The position numbers and the translations under genes were made by a program. From Akkermansiaceae bacterium (GTDB taxonomy: Bacteria; Verrucomicrobiota; Verrucomicrobiia; Verrucomicrobiales; Akkermansiaceae), in assembly GCA_905181965.1 (NCBI GenBank), contig CAJIZY010000013.1:186001-250000 (forward strand): a stretch of DNA of 64,000 nucleotides, in the 5' to 3' direction. Positions 49,118 through 60,025 of the stretch are shown in pieces; the first letter of the stretch is position 1; each line of letters starts with the position of its first letter. Below the pieces are notes generated by a model. That model saw nothing but the letters and a program-made list of their open reading frames with translations, was not told where the DNA came from and searched no databases.

Positions 49118-50545
49118 ATGATTCGCTTCATTTCACTTTGGTTCCTTCTTTTCAGCCTCTCTCAAGCAGCGCAAAGGCCTAATATTGTCGTTATTTTCTG
49201 TGATGACATGGGCTACGGCGACCTCGGTTGCTTCGGGGCGAAAGGTTGGCAAACACCCCACATCGATTCAATCGCTAAAAAAGGAGTTAAATTTACCGAC
49301 TTCTATGTCGCTCAGCCCGTCTGTTCGGCTTCTCGCACCGCTCTTCTCACCGGCTGCTACCCGAATCGTATCGGTATCTCCGGCGCCCTCTCCCAACGCA
49401 GCACGACCGGCATTCACTCCGATGAAACTACCCTCGCCGAAATCTGTAAATCTGCCGGCTATCGGACTGCAATGTATGGCAAATGGCATCTTGGCTATCA
49501 AAAAAACTTCCTCCCCGTAAATCACGGCTTTGACGACTACTTCGGCTATCCTTATTCAAATGACATGTGGCCCAGTGGCCCCGTTCGCTTTATGCCGGAT
49601 TACCCTCTGCTTCCGCTCATTGAAGACGACGAAATCATTGCACGTGTTCGCGACCAGTCATGGATGACCGCCTGGATCACCGAGCGCTCTGTGCGCTTTA
49701 TCAACGAGAAAAAGGATAAGCCCTTCTTCCTCTACCTTGCTCACCCCCAACCACATGTCCCGCTCTTCACCTCGCCAAAATACAGCGGTTCCTCGGAGCA
49801 AGGAAAGTATGGCGATGTGATCCAGGAAATCGATTGGTCCACCGGACAAGTTCTCGCCGCACTTGAAACGGCAGGAATCACCGAAAACACACTCGTCGTC
49901 TTCACCAGCGACAACGGGCCTTGGATGGTTTATGGCAATCATGCTGGAGGAGTTGGCCCGCTCCGTGGCTGCAAAGGCAACTGCTGGGAGGGCGGAGTGC
50001 GCGTTCCTTGTGTCATGCAGTGGCCCGCCAAATTAAAAGCTAGTTCGGTTGTTAAAACACCTCTCATGACGATCGATCTTCTGCCAACCATCGCAAAGAT
50101 ACTTAATGTCCCGCTCCCCAAAAAACCGATTGATGGGAAAGACGCCTGGCCCGTCATCTCCGGCCAGCAAACCGAGCCAGTGCAGGAAGCCTATTACTTT
50201 TGGTATAAGCGCAACGACCTTGAAGCAATGCGAATGGGTAAATGGAAACTGCAATTTCCACACACCTTCCGAAATTCCAAAATCACACCTGCCAACGATG
50301 GCCATGCCGGAAAGTATGTAATGCAAAAATGCGGACTCGAGCTTTACGACCTTGAAGCTGACATCGGGGAATCCAAAAACATCGCAGCCCAGCACCCCGA
50401 AATCGTCTCTAAAATGCAAGCACTCGCAATCGAGAAGCGAAGCGAGCTCGGCGATCGCCTTCAAAAAATCAAAGGCACCAAGAACCGCGAACCCGGCATC
50501 GCAAAAATTGCGAATTGGGCGAAACCAAAACCAACAAAAGAATAA
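49118..50545 (+). CDS. Secreted sulfatase (arylsulfatase A/GalNAc-6-sulfatase-like)
   Basis: A 475-residue S1 sulfatase with a signal peptide (FISLWFLLFSLSQAA). PNIVVIFCDDMGYGDLGCFG binds the metal; the catalytic motif is QPVCSASRTALLTGCYPNRI (Cys to formylglycine, C-x-A-x-R). GKWHLGYQK and FTSDNGPWMVYGNHAGGVGP match the N-acetylgalactosamine-6-sulfatase/arylsulfatase A branch. The C-terminus is basic (NWAKPKPTKE). It is transcribed divergently from the TPR-redoxin gene, with only 51 bp between their starts, so they share a compact promoter region. It converges on another sulfatase. Confidence 0.92.
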   Translation: MIRFISLWFLLFSLSQAAQRPNIVVIFCDDMGYGDLGCFGAKGWQTPHIDSIAKKGVKFTDFYVAQPVCSASRTALLTGCYPNRIGISGALSQRSTTGIHSDETTLAEICKSAGYRTAMYGKWHLGYQKNFLPVNHGFDDYFGYPYSNDMWPSGPVRFMPDYPLLPLIEDDEIIARVRDQSWMTAWITERSVRFINEKKDKPFFLYLAHPQPHVPLFTSPKYSGSSEQGKYGDVIQEIDWSTGQVLAALETAGITENTLVVFTSDNGPWMVYGNHAGGVGPLRGCKGNCWEGGVRVPCVMQWPAKLKASSVVKTPLMTIDLLPTIAKILNVPLPKKPIDGKDAWPVISGQQTEPVQEAYYFWYKRNDLEAMRMGKWKLQFPHTFRNSKITPANDGHAGKYVMQKCGLELYDLEADIGESKNIAAQHPEIVSKMQALAIEKRSELGDRLQKIKGTKNREPGIAKIANWAKPKPTKE

Positions 50546-50665
50546 AAACGGCCGTGTAAAAAACGGTTATGGGAAAAAGAACAAAGGCAAGTCCCAAGGG
50601 GTTTCATCGGCAACTTTAAACCCTGGGAAGAATTCCATTTTAATAATCAGTGCTCCAAAAGTGGT

Positions 50666-52032
50666 TCACTTACGATACGCAGGGTTTTTTTCTGCAGGAA
50701 TTGGAGCTTTCGTCGACTTCTGCCAGTCTTGCAATTCTCTTAGCAACTCCTGCTTTTTTTCTTCATTTATTAGAACAAGATTCGTCTTCTCTGAAGCATC
50801 CATCTTCAAATTATAAAGTTCGATCGCTCCATCTTCGAAATATTGAATCAACTTCCAATCTCCCTTCCGAATGACACTGCATGGCGTCGTTCGGAAGAAC
50901 TTCGAAGCGGAATCTGGATCCGCTTTATAGCTCTGTAAATACCCAGGGAAGTGCCAGAAGAGTGAACGTGGTTTTAAATCCTTTTTCTTAAAAGTCGGCA
51001 GGAGGCTGACCCCATCAAGCCCGGTCTGCCCGGTCTGCCCGGCCAAATCTAGAAAGGTCGGATAAAGATCGATCTGAGAAATCGGAGTTTTATTTTTGGA
51101 ACCGGCTTCGATCACCTCGGGAAAGCGCACCAGAAACGGTTCCCGGATCCCACCTTCATAATACATCCCTTTCACTCCGCGCAGAGGCTCGGCACGCGAG
51201 ATGCTCCCGTGCGGCCCATTGTCCGAAGTGAAAATCACAAGCGTATTCTTTGCCAAATTTTGCTCATCGAGAGTTTTTAAAATATGGCCTACTGCTTGAT
51301 CCATCGCGTCAATCATCGCAGCATATTTTGGGTTTTTATGGGAACCATCGGGTGACTTCTTTTCATATTTTGCGGTCAGATTCTTGGGAGCCTGAATCGG
51401 CGTATGGACCGAGTAAAAAGGGAGATACACAAAAAAGGGGGACTTTGAGTTCTCCGTAATCCAGTTTGCGACATCTCTACTCAAACGCTCGGGTAGATGT
51501 TCCCCTATGGGCCCGTCTTTAAGATATGGATTTTTATAGGGGGAAAAATATGACTTAGGATGCCCCCAAGTAGTCCCCCCAAAATTTGCATCAAACCCAT
51601 CCTTGGTGGGATCTTTGCTCAAATGCCACTTCCCAGCCACACAGGTCCGATAGCCCCTCGATTTTAAGGCCTCGCCACAGTCACAAATTCCCCATCGAGA
51701 ATTTGCTTATTTTTGATCGGAATGAGCTTACGATTTTTGGCTTTTCCACGGTCTGAATTAGCCACCGTAAACACGCCATGACGAGGAGTGTATTTCCCCG
51801 TCATCATACAAGCACGCGAAGGTGCACAATTTGCGGCTCCAGCATAAGCATTGCTGAAAGTCATCCCCTCCCTTCCGATTCGATCAATGTTTGGAGTCTC
51901 ATAATATTTAGAACCCTGACAGGAGAGGTCGGTATAACCTAAATCATCGGCATAAATCAGGACGATATTGGGATTTTTACCAAAACCTAAAACGGCGCCC
52001 AAAATGTGAATAAGTGCAAATTTCTTAATCAT
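50666..52032 (-). CDS. Secreted sulfatase, frame-broken (fifth S1 sulfatase)
   Basis: Start chosen at MIKKFALIHILGAVLGFG, which gives the signal peptide; a longer in-frame start would overlap the OmpA gene. The blocks PNIVLIYADDLGYTDLSCQG and NCAPSRACMMTGKYTPRHGV carry the metal site and the catalytic Cys (canonical C-x-P-S-R). The frame stops after EFVTVARP at 51664, and CVAGKWHLSKDPTKDGFDAN resumes in another frame. Restoring one base at about 51673 gives VAEALKSRGYRTCVAGKWH, the expected sulfatase sequence. VIFTSDNGPHGSISRAEPLR and LIQYFEDGAIELYNLKMDAS complete the fold. I treat it as one functional gene with a sequence indel. Confidence 0.85.
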
Positions 52033-52134
52033 TCTTAACTGTAACGATTCCCTCGCTTCCAAGGTGAAAAGGAAGGAGGTTGGAATACCCTTGTCCCGAT
52101 TCGGCTTGGAGAGGAAACTTTTTTCTAAAATTTT

Positions 52135-54007
52135 ATGAACAAGATCCTTACACTTTTGGCTGCACTCATGCTCCAAATCCTCACCCCTGTCTCAGCACAG
52201 GAGTCAGGAACCGAGCTTACCGGAGCCCAAAAAGACCGTGAACGGCTCATCGATTTAGCGCTTAGCCTGGAAGCAGACTTCGGCCGAACTCTTCAAGATT
52301 TCACCCAGCTTCAGAAAGACTATGCCAAACTCCTTAAAGAGAAGGCGGTTCCTGATCAATCGGGAAAAGTTCAAGACCTCCAAGAAAAGCTTAAGCAAGC
52401 ACTTGCTAAAATCGCGGAGAAAAGACCTACCGGACCCGATCCACACAACCAAGAGCTTCTGAAGCAAGATATGGTAAATCTCCGCAACGAGCTCCATCGC
52501 GAGCGGCAGGATCTCATGGTCGCCCGAGCACGCCTCATTCGCGTAAACGAACTAGAGAGCCAGCTAGACAAAGAAACGCTAGGAAAAATACAGGCAACGA
52601 AAGAGCTCAAGCAAATCAAAACCGAACATGCAAAACTCCTCAGTGAGTTGAAATCAACAATGGTAAGGCTCGAAAAAGCAGAGCAAGGCCACGAGATCGC
52701 AATCGCAAGAATTGACTCACTGCAAAAAGAAAACCTCACTTTAAAAGAAAAAGTCAAAACTCAGGATGCCGAGATCGCACGCCTCCTCCCGATCGAACAA
52801 CAATATAAAAAAGCGACGATTGCAGCGACTGAACTCAAAAAAGAACAAAGCCGCCTCTCTAAAACCCTCACCGAGCGTGAGAAGCAATTGGCCAACCTCA
52901 AGTCTCATCTCGCTGCCGAGGTTAAGAGGAGCCTTGAGATTCCGATCTTAGTTCAGGCTAATTTTTACTGGAAGCATAGAAAACATATTCAGCAATAAAG
53001 AATTCAAAAACAACAACGACGTTCTCACCGCCAAACGTCTTGAACTTGAGGAAAAGATCAATGAGGCACAACAGACCATTCTAGCGATGCGCGCCCAACT
53101 CGAAAAAAATGAGACAGCGATCGCTTCAGTCACGGAACTCACTACAACGAATGACCGTCTCGTCGCCGAGAAAGCCCTACTTGAAAATACCGTTAATATG
53201 GCCAAGGCCGAGCTCGTAAAAGCGATGGGATTACGAACCCGCCTCGAGGCTGAATTAGCAGAAACTAAAAAGGTCGCAATAGCTGTCGAAACACTCAAAA
53301 ATAAGAACGCTGTTCTAGTTGAGGGGAAAGCTATGATCCAAGATCGACTGAGTGCGAACGAAAAAAGCTTTAGTCTACTCAAGGCAGACCGCGATAGATT
53401 GGAGATGGCTTATGAGAACCTCGAAAAAGCAAAAACTGACCTTTCGACGGAAATCACCCAACGTAATGATGAACTGAACAAGCTTCGTGCTGAACTTGTT
53501 GAGAAGTCCGAGGATTCCGAAGGTATCGGTGCTCTCAAAGAAGAAAAAGCTACTCTTAAGGCACAGCTCCTGAAGCGCGACGAGGATTTAAAGAAGGCCC
53601 GCAAGGAACTCGGCAAACTTCAAATTAACGCTACCGTCCTAGAAAAACAGCTCGTATCTCTCAAGCGGACCACTGCCTCCATCAATCCCATTCGCTACGC
53701 CAAAGGAGACGCTAATATCACCAATCAACAAACTCGTGTCTTAAATGAAGTTCAACAAGTCCTGAAAATCTTCCCAAACGCCAGATTCGAAATCGTGGGC
53801 CATACCTGTGATCTTGGGATAGCCGACCAAAACATCGATCTTAGCCGGCGGCGCGCGCAATCGCTTCATGACTTCCTACTCTCGAAGGGAATAAAAAAGG
53901 ATCGCCTTAAACATCGTGGAATGGGCCAAAGCGAACCAGCTGTCCCCAACACTAACGAAGCCAACCGCCGTCAAAACCGGCGTGTTGAAGTTGAAATCCT
54001 CGACTAA
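52135..54007 (+). CDS. Long coiled-coil protein with C-terminal OmpA domain, frame-broken
   Basis: Signal peptide (ILTLLAALMLQILTPVSAQ), then about 480 residues of almost continuous coiled coil (for example LRNELHRERQDLMVARARLI; LKKEQSRLSKTLTEREKQLA; ALKEEKATLKAQLLKRDEDL), then an OmpA-type peptidoglycan-binding domain (FEIVGHTCDLGIADQNIDLS; RRRAQSLHDFLLSKGIKKDR; NEANRRQNRRVEVEILD). The frame breaks at a T5 run (52962-52966); removing one T gives VQANFTGSIENIFSNKEF and joins the parts. It should span the periplasm and bind the cell wall. A galactose mutarotase gene follows 9 bp downstream and may be co-transcribed. It is divergent from the sulfatase at 52032. Confidence 0.85.
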
Positions 54008-56749: not shown

Positions 56750-57013
56750 ATTCACTCTACGTTTGCCATCAGTGAATTCTACCGAATCAGGAGCGCTTGG
56801 CCTGCTCCCCCAGCGTGAAAACCCGCAATTTCTGAAACGAGGACCCTTTTCAAGGCTTAACTCTTGTCCGGGGAGCGATCCCAAGTGTTCGTCCGGACCG
56901 AGGAAACCAGAAGACCACCTGAGCTGAAACGGGTCTCAGAAATCCATGATCCTAAAGTCTAAGGGTGTGGCTGTTGCCTTCTTAGCTTAATCTACTAATC
57001 TGTCTAAGAACTC

Positions 57014-57373
57014 ATGCCTAAAGTTACTATCTATCACTTCAATCATTGAGGATCTTCCACAAATGCCTTGGCGGTCGCCGAGGACCTAGGGGTTGATCAT
57101 GAAGTTATTCTCTACATTAAAACACCACCCGACGAAGCCACCCTCACAAAAATCGTGGACGTCCTTGAAGATCCGGTACAGGACCTCGTTCGTAAGGATT
57201 CCAAATTTAAGAAACTTGAGCTTAATCCGGACGATTTCGTAGGTAATCCAAAGGCAGTTATCGATATCCTCGTAAAGCACAAGCAACTCCTTCAAAGACC
57301 TATTTTAGTCACGAGGAAGCAGGCCATTATTGGGCGCCCTAAACAAAGAATTATCGACTTTCTAAGTGCATAA
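57014..57373 (+). CDS. Selenocysteine-containing ArsC-like protein (TGA read as Sec at codon 12)
   Basis: Read through one in-frame TGA at 57047-57049, ATG 57014 to TAA gives a 119-residue ArsC/Spx/YffB-family protein. The N-terminus MPKVTIYHFNH-Sec-GSSTNALAV aligns with the ArsC catalytic region (TIYHNPxCGTSRNTL), placing Sec exactly at the catalytic Cys, residue 12. The conserved ArsC C-terminal features remain (LNPDDFVGNPKAVIDILVKH; QRPILVTRKQAIIGRP). Without readthrough no ordinary start gives the first strand and active site. A SECIS-like hairpin follows the TGA. Arsenate reductase activity is possible but the HFNH context differs from classical ArsC, so a thiol-redox role is equally likely. 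An HMA-domain gene follows downstream. Confidence 0.88.
57050..57083 (+). promoter_or_regulatory. Predicted bacterial SECIS element (ArsC-like gene)
   Basis: Directly after the TGA, CCTTGGC (57066-57072) pairs with GCCGAGG (57077-57083) in a 7-bp stem with one G-T wobble and a GGTC loop (57073-57076). The loop starts 23 nt after the TGA, within the known bacterial SECIS range, and the GGUC loop matches the SelB-binding loop of E. coli fdhF in sequence. Confidence 0.8.
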
Positions 57374-57562
57374 AATGGGAAGTAAGAATCTCACCTCACC
57401 ACTAATTCTCCGATTGAAAACCCCGCTCTTGTTTCTAGGGAGATAGCTCGCAACCCCTTAAAATCGACCTCCCGTGAACTTCCATCGATTCCTTCATGGA
57501 GAAATCTAGAAAAAACAAAAAATCAGGCCCAGATGTGCCGCTTCCCTTATGATCATCCTCTT

Positions 57563-58159
57563 ATGAGAGACATTATTGCCCTCCTATCATTCCTCGCTCT
57601 CGGGTCGCTCGCGAATGCTCAAGATGCTCCCACTGCCAAAAATTGCCCTAGCAGATGTGCCGCCAGTAAGTGCGACGCCGGAGCCTGCGCCGCCGATTGC
57701 TGTGGCCCCACGGTCAAGCTCGCCGTCAATGGACTCGAGAAGGAAGGCGTTGCTGAGACCACCGAACTTACCCTCAGCGCCATGGCTGGCATCAACCATT
57801 GCTCGACCAGTGTCAAATCCGGCACCGTCATGGTCAAGTATGATACCGAGAAGATGAAAGTCGCCGATATTGAAAAAGCGGTCGCTAAAAACGGCCTCAA
57901 AATTGTGGGTTACAAAGCTGACTTTAAGATCAGGGGCCTCGCCTGTCAGTCCTGTAGCAACCACCTCACCGCTGTTCTTGGTAAGACCGAGGGTGTTGTG
58001 AACGTCAATAAGGTCTGCCACATGAGCGGAACTGTGGGGATTACGTTTGATGCCAAAAAGACCGACAAGAGAAAACTCAAGGCCGCCATTCACACCACCA
58101 AATACAAGGTGGTTGAATCCAAGAAGGAGGCACCTGCTGCTGCCACTTCTCAAAGCTAG
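57563..58159 (+). CDS. Exported protein with two HMA-like domains
   Basis: The preferred start MRDIIALLSFLALGSLANA gives a signal peptide; an in-frame Met ten residues upstream is less likely. A Cys-rich segment follows (NCPSRCAASKCDAGACAADC). Two heavy-metal-associated ferredoxin-like folds come next: a first with one Cys (AMAGINHCSTSVKSGTVMVK) and a second with the CxxC site (KIRGLACQSCSNHLTAVLGK). The first domain lacks the usual CxxC pair. It probably binds a soft metal ion (copper or similar) in the periplasm. It lies 189 bp downstream of the ArsC-like selenoprotein gene, same strand. Confidence 0.82.
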   Translation: MRDIIALLSFLALGSLANAQDAPTAKNCPSRCAASKCDAGACAADCCGPTVKLAVNGLEKEGVAETTELTLSAMAGINHCSTSVKSGTVMVKYDTEKMKVADIEKAVAKNGLKIVGYKADFKIRGLACQSCSNHLTAVLGKTEGVVNVNKVCHMSGTVGITFDAKKTDKRKLKAAIHTTKYKVVESKKEAPAAATSQS

Positions 58160-58784: not shown

Positions 58785-60025
58785 ATGCCCTTTTCTTCCT
58801 TTGCGCTCACCGAACCGCTTCTTCGCGCAGTCAGCCACTATCCCGAGCCAACTCGCGTGCAGTTAGAATCGATACCAGTGATTCTCGCAGGGGGTGACCT
58901 TCTCGCGACAGCACAGACTGGATCGGGAAAGACAATGGCCTTTATTCTGCCGCTTCTACAGCGCTGGACCTCGGCCTCTGAAAAACTGAAACGGAACCGG
59001 CCGCTTAATATCCTCATCCTCGTTCCGACACGTGAACTCGCGGCGCAAGTCAGGACCGTGGTTCAGGAATGCGCGGCGCATCTTGACGAGCGACCAAAGG
59101 TCGTAAGCGCGGTCGGTGGAGTCTCGATCAATCCTCAAATGATGGCGCTGCGTGGAGGCGCTGATTTTGTCGTCGCGACACCGGGCCGGCTTCTCGATCT
59201 CGTCAAGCGTAATGCCTCGCGCATTGCACCCTGCTCGTCCTCGACGAGGCCGACCGACTCCTTGATCTCGGTTTCTCCGAAGAGCTGAACTGCATTTTTG
59301 ATCTACTCCCGGCACGCCGACAGAATCTGCTTTTCTCCGCGACCTTTCCAAAGAAGGTCGAAGCGCTCGCGCTGAAATCGTTATACGAACCAAACCGCGT
59401 CCGCATCGACGAGGAACCGAAAGGCGCACCTGACATCAAGCAACAAGCGATCCGGGTCGATACAGAGAGACGCACACCGCTGCTCCAGCATCTCATTGAA
59501 AAGGAAAACTGGAAACGGGTGCTTGTCTTTGTGGCATCACAATACACCGCCGAGCACGTCGTGATGAAACTACGCCGCAATGGAATTCGCGCCGGGGCCT
59601 TTCACGGCGATCTCAGTCAGGGTGCCCGGAGCGAAGCGCTCGAAGACTTCAAGAACTCACATTTCAAGGTCATGGTCGCAACCGACCTCGCCGCACGCGG
59701 TCTCGACATCGTGGAGCTACCCGTCGTTGTAAACTATGACCTGCCCCGCTCCGCAGATGACTATACCCACCGCATCGGTCGCACCGGACGGGCAGGGGAG
59801 CACGGTGTTGCCGTCAGTTTTGTCACCGCAGAAAACGAATCGCACTTTCGTCTCATCGAAAAGCGGAATGCCTGCCGTCTCACTCGAAAAGAGATCGAAG
59901 GTTTCGAGCCAACCGAAACCCCGCGCGCGCGGCTCGCATCAGCAGGAACAGGCGGCATCAAAGGACGCCGCAAGAGCAAGAAGGACAAGCTACGCGAAGC
60001 GGCAGCACGGAAGCTCAAAGAATAA
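58785..60025 (+). CDS. rhlE: RhlE-type DEAD-box RNA helicase, frame-broken
   Basis: Motif Q at [20 protein letters not shown], motif [14 protein letters not shown], Ia PTRELAAQV, Ib TPGRLLDLV, then, after a frame shift, motif [16 protein letters not shown], motif [27 protein letters not shown], motif [14 protein letters not shown] and motif [15 protein letters not shown]. The first frame ends at 59288 because a C is missing near 59229; adding it gives [18 protein letters not shown], the expected motif II context. The C-terminus is basic ([20 protein letters not shown]). It probably unwinds structured RNA, as in cold response or ribosome assembly. I annotate it as one gene. Confidence 0.88.

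Follow-up and report, generated by a model that had tools for sequence, protein, structure and literature searches.

ArsC-like selenoproteins are known, as predictions, from metagenomic surveys of the ocean. Sequences carrying selenocysteine (Sec, U) in a UxxS motif were predicted in 2005 and 2008 (PMC1088965, PMC2398784), and the Sargasso Sea study contributed 14 arsenate reductase selenoproteins of this form (PMC1088965). In the GOS study, the family ArsC 1 (pfam03960) holds 77 UxxS sequences and has 784 Cys homologues in the GOS samples, and Arsenate reductase 2 holds 42 UxxC sequences (PMC2398784). A 2026 review also lists arsenate reductase (TIGR00014) with UxxS, and states that nearly all selenoproteins of the group that includes it came from bioinformatics and are functionally largely uncharacterised (PMC13188914). 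The consulted sections of the Sargasso Sea and GOS reports name no host, and the literature searched, a body that leaves most subscription journals outside, held neither an assignment of the family to Verrucomicrobiota or Acidimicrobiia nor any assay of it. The kind of selenoprotein described here is already known, as the earlier note on this DNA had rightly said of metagenomic surveys. What is new is firmer evidence for the Sec signal and for the hosts: a selenoprotein kind from ocean reads is now tied to groups labelled Verrucomicrobiota and Acidimicrobiia.

The gene studied here resembles ArsC 1 in its Pfam family, in having Sec at the catalytic Cys position, in its UxxS motif and in a predicted bSECIS element downstream, a likeness drawn from the published descriptions rather than from comparison of the sequences (PMC1088965, PMC2398784). 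The review also describes a UxxC arsenate reductase-like selenoprotein, NF041106 (PMC13188914), which is probably the Arsenate reductase 2 of GOS. It is likewise an ArsC-related selenoprotein but has a UxxC redox pair in place of UxxS, and its model was not among the seven NCBIfam models matched by our protein. The Spx and MgsR regulators share the ArsC fold but scored more weakly (42.8 bits versus 86.4 for arsC), and the protein studied here has no CxxC-type pair.

The gene lies at 57014-57373 on the + strand of the window, the whole 64-kb stretch of DNA analysed, and appears to read a TGA stop codon as selenocysteine at the active site of an ArsC-like protein. Its frame of 119 codons plus stop, recognised by sequence matches and an AlphaFold2 model, begins MPKVTIYHFNH-U-GSSTNALAV, ends in TAA and contains a single in-frame TGA, codon 12 (57047-57049, + strand). 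In the alignment to PDB relatives this codon falls on Cys12 of E. coli-type ArsC, which places the predicted Sec at the catalytic Cys position, within a UxxS motif formed by U12-G13-S14-S15. Both the position of this TGA and the ArsC-like character of the sequence on either side of it, in one frame, had been claimed from the letters alone, and both stand: the protein matches PF03960 (Pfam ArsC) at 1.1e-11 (45.2 bits; cut-off 24). A program-made list of open reading frames gives 57068-57373, which would make the protein 101 residues long from a TTG start at 57068 and would leave the upstream part to chance. Such a start would cost the protein its strand 1 and its active-site loop, both conserved in 80 relatives and present in the AlphaFold2 model, and we consider it very improbable.

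A single query gave 109 matches in GTDB genomes; the 80 best of them were taken as relatives, the other 29 being weaker. Their labels were mostly Verrucomicrobiota or Acidimicrobiia, with one Pirellulaceae, and some labels of binned genomes may be wrong. TGA occupied the same codon in 80/80 of these best matches, and exactly one stop was present within the first 110 codons in 81/81 sequences when the window's own gene was added. Because these relatives were picked by similarity to a single query, a profile search of 260 genomes of the same family is the fairer test. The profile, built from 24 clade members written with Cys, matched 47 of the 260 genomes. Among the matches that scored at least 198 bits, one of which is in the window's own genome, 39/39 had one TGA; a 118-bit match in genome G505 was a fragment beginning at profile position 54, beyond the TGA region, and the remaining seven matches, at 71 bits or less, had no internal stop. 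Among 288 genomes drawn from across the phylum, the TGA form occurred in the window's own genome only, and 12 others had stop-free forms at 88 bits or less, one of the matches being partial.

These counts bear directly on whether a sense codon was turned into TGA by sequencing error or by decay into a pseudogene. The assembly may contain errors, since frameshifts seem to affect two other genes in the window. An error or pseudogene would nevertheless have to recur at one codon in 80/80 relatives, which come from other assemblies and are labelled as belonging to two or more phyla, and in all 39 same-family matches of 198 bits or more, leave no further stop in the first 110 codons of any of the 81 sequences, and coincide with the covarying hairpin described below. 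We therefore rejected this explanation as exceedingly improbable.

No close Cys form was found among the best 80 of 109 relatives, the 260 same-family genomes or the 288 phylum-wide genomes, whereas GOS counts its 784 Cys homologues for ArsC 1 (PMC2398784). Because of that count, and because the 29 weaker relatives lie outside the set, the description "Sec-only" applies to the scope searched. Alignment with Cys-containing homologues, a check proposed in the earlier note, showed that all 12 distant homologues fetched had Cys, not Trp, at the place aligned with the TGA. In a gene tree of 39 of the 81 Sec rows and 10 of the 12 Cys rows, with two near-duplicates of relative L110 excluded, the Sec rows fell on one side of a branch with 96/96 support that recurred in 94% of 200 bootstrap trees; the Cys branches are long and the midpoint root is arbitrary. 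A scan of viral contigs by protein alignment and a TGA-hairpin pattern returned no relative. Plasmid records gave 2691 matches, all under 60% identity, and the eight matches listed were all annotated as arsC.

A predicted bSECIS hairpin of 7 bp (57066-57072 pairing with 57077-57083; whole element 57066-57083, + strand) follows the TGA and encloses a GGTC apical loop (57073-57076, + strand). The earlier note had placed a stem-loop 23 nt after the TGA; that distance is correct for the loop, and the stem begins at 16 nt. Counting from the T of TGA, GGTC was at nt 27-30 in 81/81 sequences. We compared each hairpin with a null in which synonymous codons were sampled at the frequencies that these same genes show from codon 29 on. 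The hairpin was more stable than this null in 81/81 cases (mean -10.9 versus -5.0 kcal/mol), with z of -3.8 for the window and a mean z of -2.7. Valine codon 21, moreover, was GTC in 81/81 sequences, compared with 337 of 763 valine codons from codon 29 on.

Pairing was scored over 78 distinct rows against 500 shuffles, which do not keep kinship. Paired cells made up 97.3% compared with 93.9 in shuffled alignments, double-change cells numbered 21 compared with 5.2, and the covariation score was 0.199 compared with 0.134; 0/500 shuffles reached the observed value for either of the latter two measures. Three pairs changed on both sides versus 1.9 when shuffled, a number reached by 14/500 shuffles. 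The clearest covariation joined the third bases of Leu codon 19 and Ala codon 22, which were G-C in 61, A-T in 12 and G-T in 8 of the 81 sequences. The register given above beat slid versions on all pairing measures; pair 22-35 was unpaired in 9/78 rows, and RNAalifold alone returned only the outer five of the seven pairs. No GGTC was present in the loop region after the Cys codon of the 12 distant Cys homologues, where the most stable local fold reached -5.9 kcal/mol. Within the window, 95 TGA codons were preceded by a start codon at a distance of 5 codons or more and followed by 60 or more open codons, and codon 12 had the most stable downstream hairpin among them, which takes it beyond chance. 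Eight of the other 94, chosen among those with stable hairpins, were translated, and none looked redox-like by eye. Covariation and codon constraint together show that the predicted Sec signal is under selection.

The machinery for Sec insertion was largely present in the window's own genome. Matches over curated cut-offs were found for selA (C9:39365-40711, 486 bits), selB (C11:49838-51745, 310 bits) and selD (L096, C22:7204-8130, 385 bits). The selD gene is itself interrupted by an in-frame TGA, within CGG-TGA-ASK (CGG-U-ASK), which brings the predicted selenoprotein genes of this genome to at least two. UxxK is the motif given for Sec-type SelD in the review (PMC13188914). The earlier note had named the absence of all sel genes as evidence against Sec and had pointed to selA, selB, selD and tRNA-Sec as the genes to find; the first three are there, and tRNA-Sec was not found in the assembly, which is 61.6% complete, where no Rfam match exceeded the cut-off. 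The best match turned out to be a Ser tRNA, which scored 39.8 bits where the cut-off is 47. Nine sub-cut-off matches were rejected as candidates, the eight with loci being Ser, Gly, Asp, Ser, Cys, Glu, Leu and Pro tRNAs. ARAGORN found no tRNA within the selA, selB and selD loci, and nothing within the 64-kb window reached an Rfam gathering score.

Across genomes, selB accompanied the TGA form. It was found in 36/39 genomes with the TGA form versus 32/220 without (p 9e-22, uncorrected for kinship, G505 excluded), and the three TGA-form genomes that had no match were 65-88% complete. Among the genomes of fetched loci that were searched (41 of 80 loci, partly the same genomes as the family set), 36/41 had selB. 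The gene lay within about 4 kb of the Sec gene in two genomes (G018:C12, G002:C87), and on a different contig from it in the window's genome. tRNA-Sec exceeded the Rfam cut-off in 20/26 other genomes of the genus and in 40/58 genomes searched, the window's own among the 58. The TGA could in principle be read as some other residue, by general recoding or Trp read-through, and the missing tRNA-Sec would fit that account. It sits poorly, however, with selA, selB and a selD that has the U-A-S-K context, with a bSECIS-like hairpin, with Cys rather than Trp in 12/12 homologues fetched, and with tRNA-Sec in most of the genomes searched; we judge such a reading highly unlikely. Sec insertion at UGA-12, which we infer from sequence features and established bacterial Sec biology, has strong sequence evidence.

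With Cys written for Sec, the best NCBIfam model was TIGR00014, arsC (glutaredoxin), at 86.4 bits, under its cut-off of 106.05. The best relatives of solved structure were arsenate reductases, namely 3rdw and the E. coli entries 1jzw and 1i9d (3e-15 to 5e-15). We take the latter two to be the plasmid R773 enzyme. This glutaredoxin-dependent ArsC shares with our protein its fold, its numbering at residues 12 and 60, and three arginines, at 32-33% identity, but has Cys12 where the window's protein has the predicted Sec12. Arg60 (codon at 57191-57193), Arg95 (57296-57298) and Arg108 (57335-57337), all on the + strand, align with Arg60, Arg94 and Arg107 of E. coli ArsC, and we assume that residue 12 and the three arginines have the catalytic roles they have in that enzyme. 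His8, Sec/Cys12, Ser15, Arg60, Arg95 and Arg108 were invariant in 24/24 clade rows (24 of the 81 members aligned). The residue-12 nucleophile and the three arginines were also kept in 23/23 rows of a second alignment, six of them Cys homologues. A block around Arg60, DLVRKDSKFKK, was conserved in the Sec clade and missing from those six.

An AlphaFold2 model, built with Cys for Sec from the 23-row alignment, had a mean pLDDT of 92.5. Its 11 best PDB matches were arsenate reductases, with TM scores normalised by query of 0.77-0.82, and PDB titles among the matches name C12S and R60 mutants. The sequence context of the TGA had previously been called unlike classical arsenate reductase. That description does not hold, since the protein retains all three arginines of ArsC, which do not vary among the 24 members aligned out of 81; the best PDB relatives are arsenate reductases, and IYHNPH-U-GSS was read in 28/80 relatives, counted by eye.

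From these features a mechanism can be proposed. SelB would bind the hairpin with the GGUC loop immediately past codon 12 and deliver Sec-tRNA to the UGA, making Sec12 the catalytic residue in place of Cys12. The chemistry of ArsC is drawn from the E. coli enzyme. By analogy, the selenolate, flanked by three conserved arginines, would attack an oxyanion, most likely arsenate; with a selenolate at the Cys12 place and the three arginines kept, we infer that ArsC-type oxyanion attack is the likeliest chemistry. The window's protein contains no Cys, the TGA-encoded residue aside, so external thiols, glutathione and glutaredoxin for example, would presumably resolve the adduct. We favour this account with some reserve: a selenoprotein of the glutaredoxin-dependent ArsC family whose Sec12 acts on an oxyanion, arsenate being the likeliest, with thiols from outside the protein resolving the adduct.

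Arsenate reduction by the Sec protein is plausible and is unsupported by gene content. The own genome carries an Acr3 (C20:27356-28252), and its assembly contained no second ArsC-family gene. Acr3 was not enriched (15/39 genomes with the Sec gene versus 66/220 without, p 0.35), ArsB was found in 0/39 genomes with the Sec gene, and 24 of these 39 had neither exporter at the thresholds used. E. coli-type ArsC is usually encoded in ars operons. At the Sec loci, in contrast, no ars neighbour was recognised by eye among the 45 widest clusters of neighbouring genes, each judged on the N-terminal 70 residues of a single member. The clusters were built from ORFs of at least 90 aa within 7 kb of the 81 loci, some of which are cut by contig ends. 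The widest spanned 16/81 loci, no cluster was common to most, and Pfam was run on six window neighbours only. One Cys homologue (G443:C235) adjoins acr3.

These absences lend some weight to a different role, in which an ArsC-fold selenoprotein keeps the ArsC active site but serves thiol-disulfide or glutathione-linked redox chemistry, or reduces another oxyanion, rather than detoxifying arsenate. The score below the TIGR00014 cut-off and the DLVRKDSKFKK block, absent from the six aligned Cys homologues, point the same way. Against it, the clade keeps the three arginines, His8 and Ser15, the own genome has its Acr3, many of the genomes are incomplete, and the counts cover Acr3 and ArsB among the exits for arsenite, which also include ArsP, ArsJ and ArsM. 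We regard this alternative as possible but the less probable of the two, and the caution about substrate expressed in the earlier note was fair. More doubtful still is a broader proposal, suggested by the many hosts that have neither Acr3 nor ArsB: that the family is a cross-phylum ArsC-fold clade, Sec-only within our searches, whose role lies outside arsenic resistance and for which selenium would be indispensable. If the protein does reduce arsenate, it would be the Sec counterpart of a thoroughly studied Cys enzyme, and the two would allow a clean comparison of what selenium contributes. Otherwise, this widespread selenoprotein would have another substrate, one yet to be identified.

Several other features were observed near the gene and its relatives. 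A protein with heavy-metal-associated (HMA) domains and a Cys-rich start is encoded at 57533-58159, about 160 bases past the Sec gene, and its cluster lies near the Sec gene in 8/81 loci. In another genome (G510:C1:2361081-2361602), a partial Acr3-like match contains one in-frame TGA and may be a fragment or an error. Upstream of the gene (56964-57013), and at the same place in several of the relatives L013-L033, several Verrucomicrobial copies showed by eye no Shine-Dalgarno-like motif. In the same regions, TTGAC or TTGCC lay some 30-38 nt ahead of the start and a TA-rich stretch roughly 10 nt ahead of it, a pattern that perhaps reflects a very short leader. Two scans lent this idea no support: one detected no promoter-like site upstream of the gene in the window, and in the other 0/72 starts scored 9 of 12 and four scored 8.

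Sulfatase-like genes, recognised by eye, occupy 49118-52176, and one appears broken into two minus-strand ORFs (50666-51640 and 51664-52176). A DEAD-box-like helicase, also recognised by eye, spans 58785-60025 and is split in a frameshift-like manner over ORFs 58785-59288 and 59519-60025. The two + strand ORFs at 52135-54007 encode a start that resembles a coiled coil and the C-terminal part of an OmpA protein. A single ORF of 650 residues stands at the corresponding place in relative L011, and the split in the window is a probable frameshift in this assembly.
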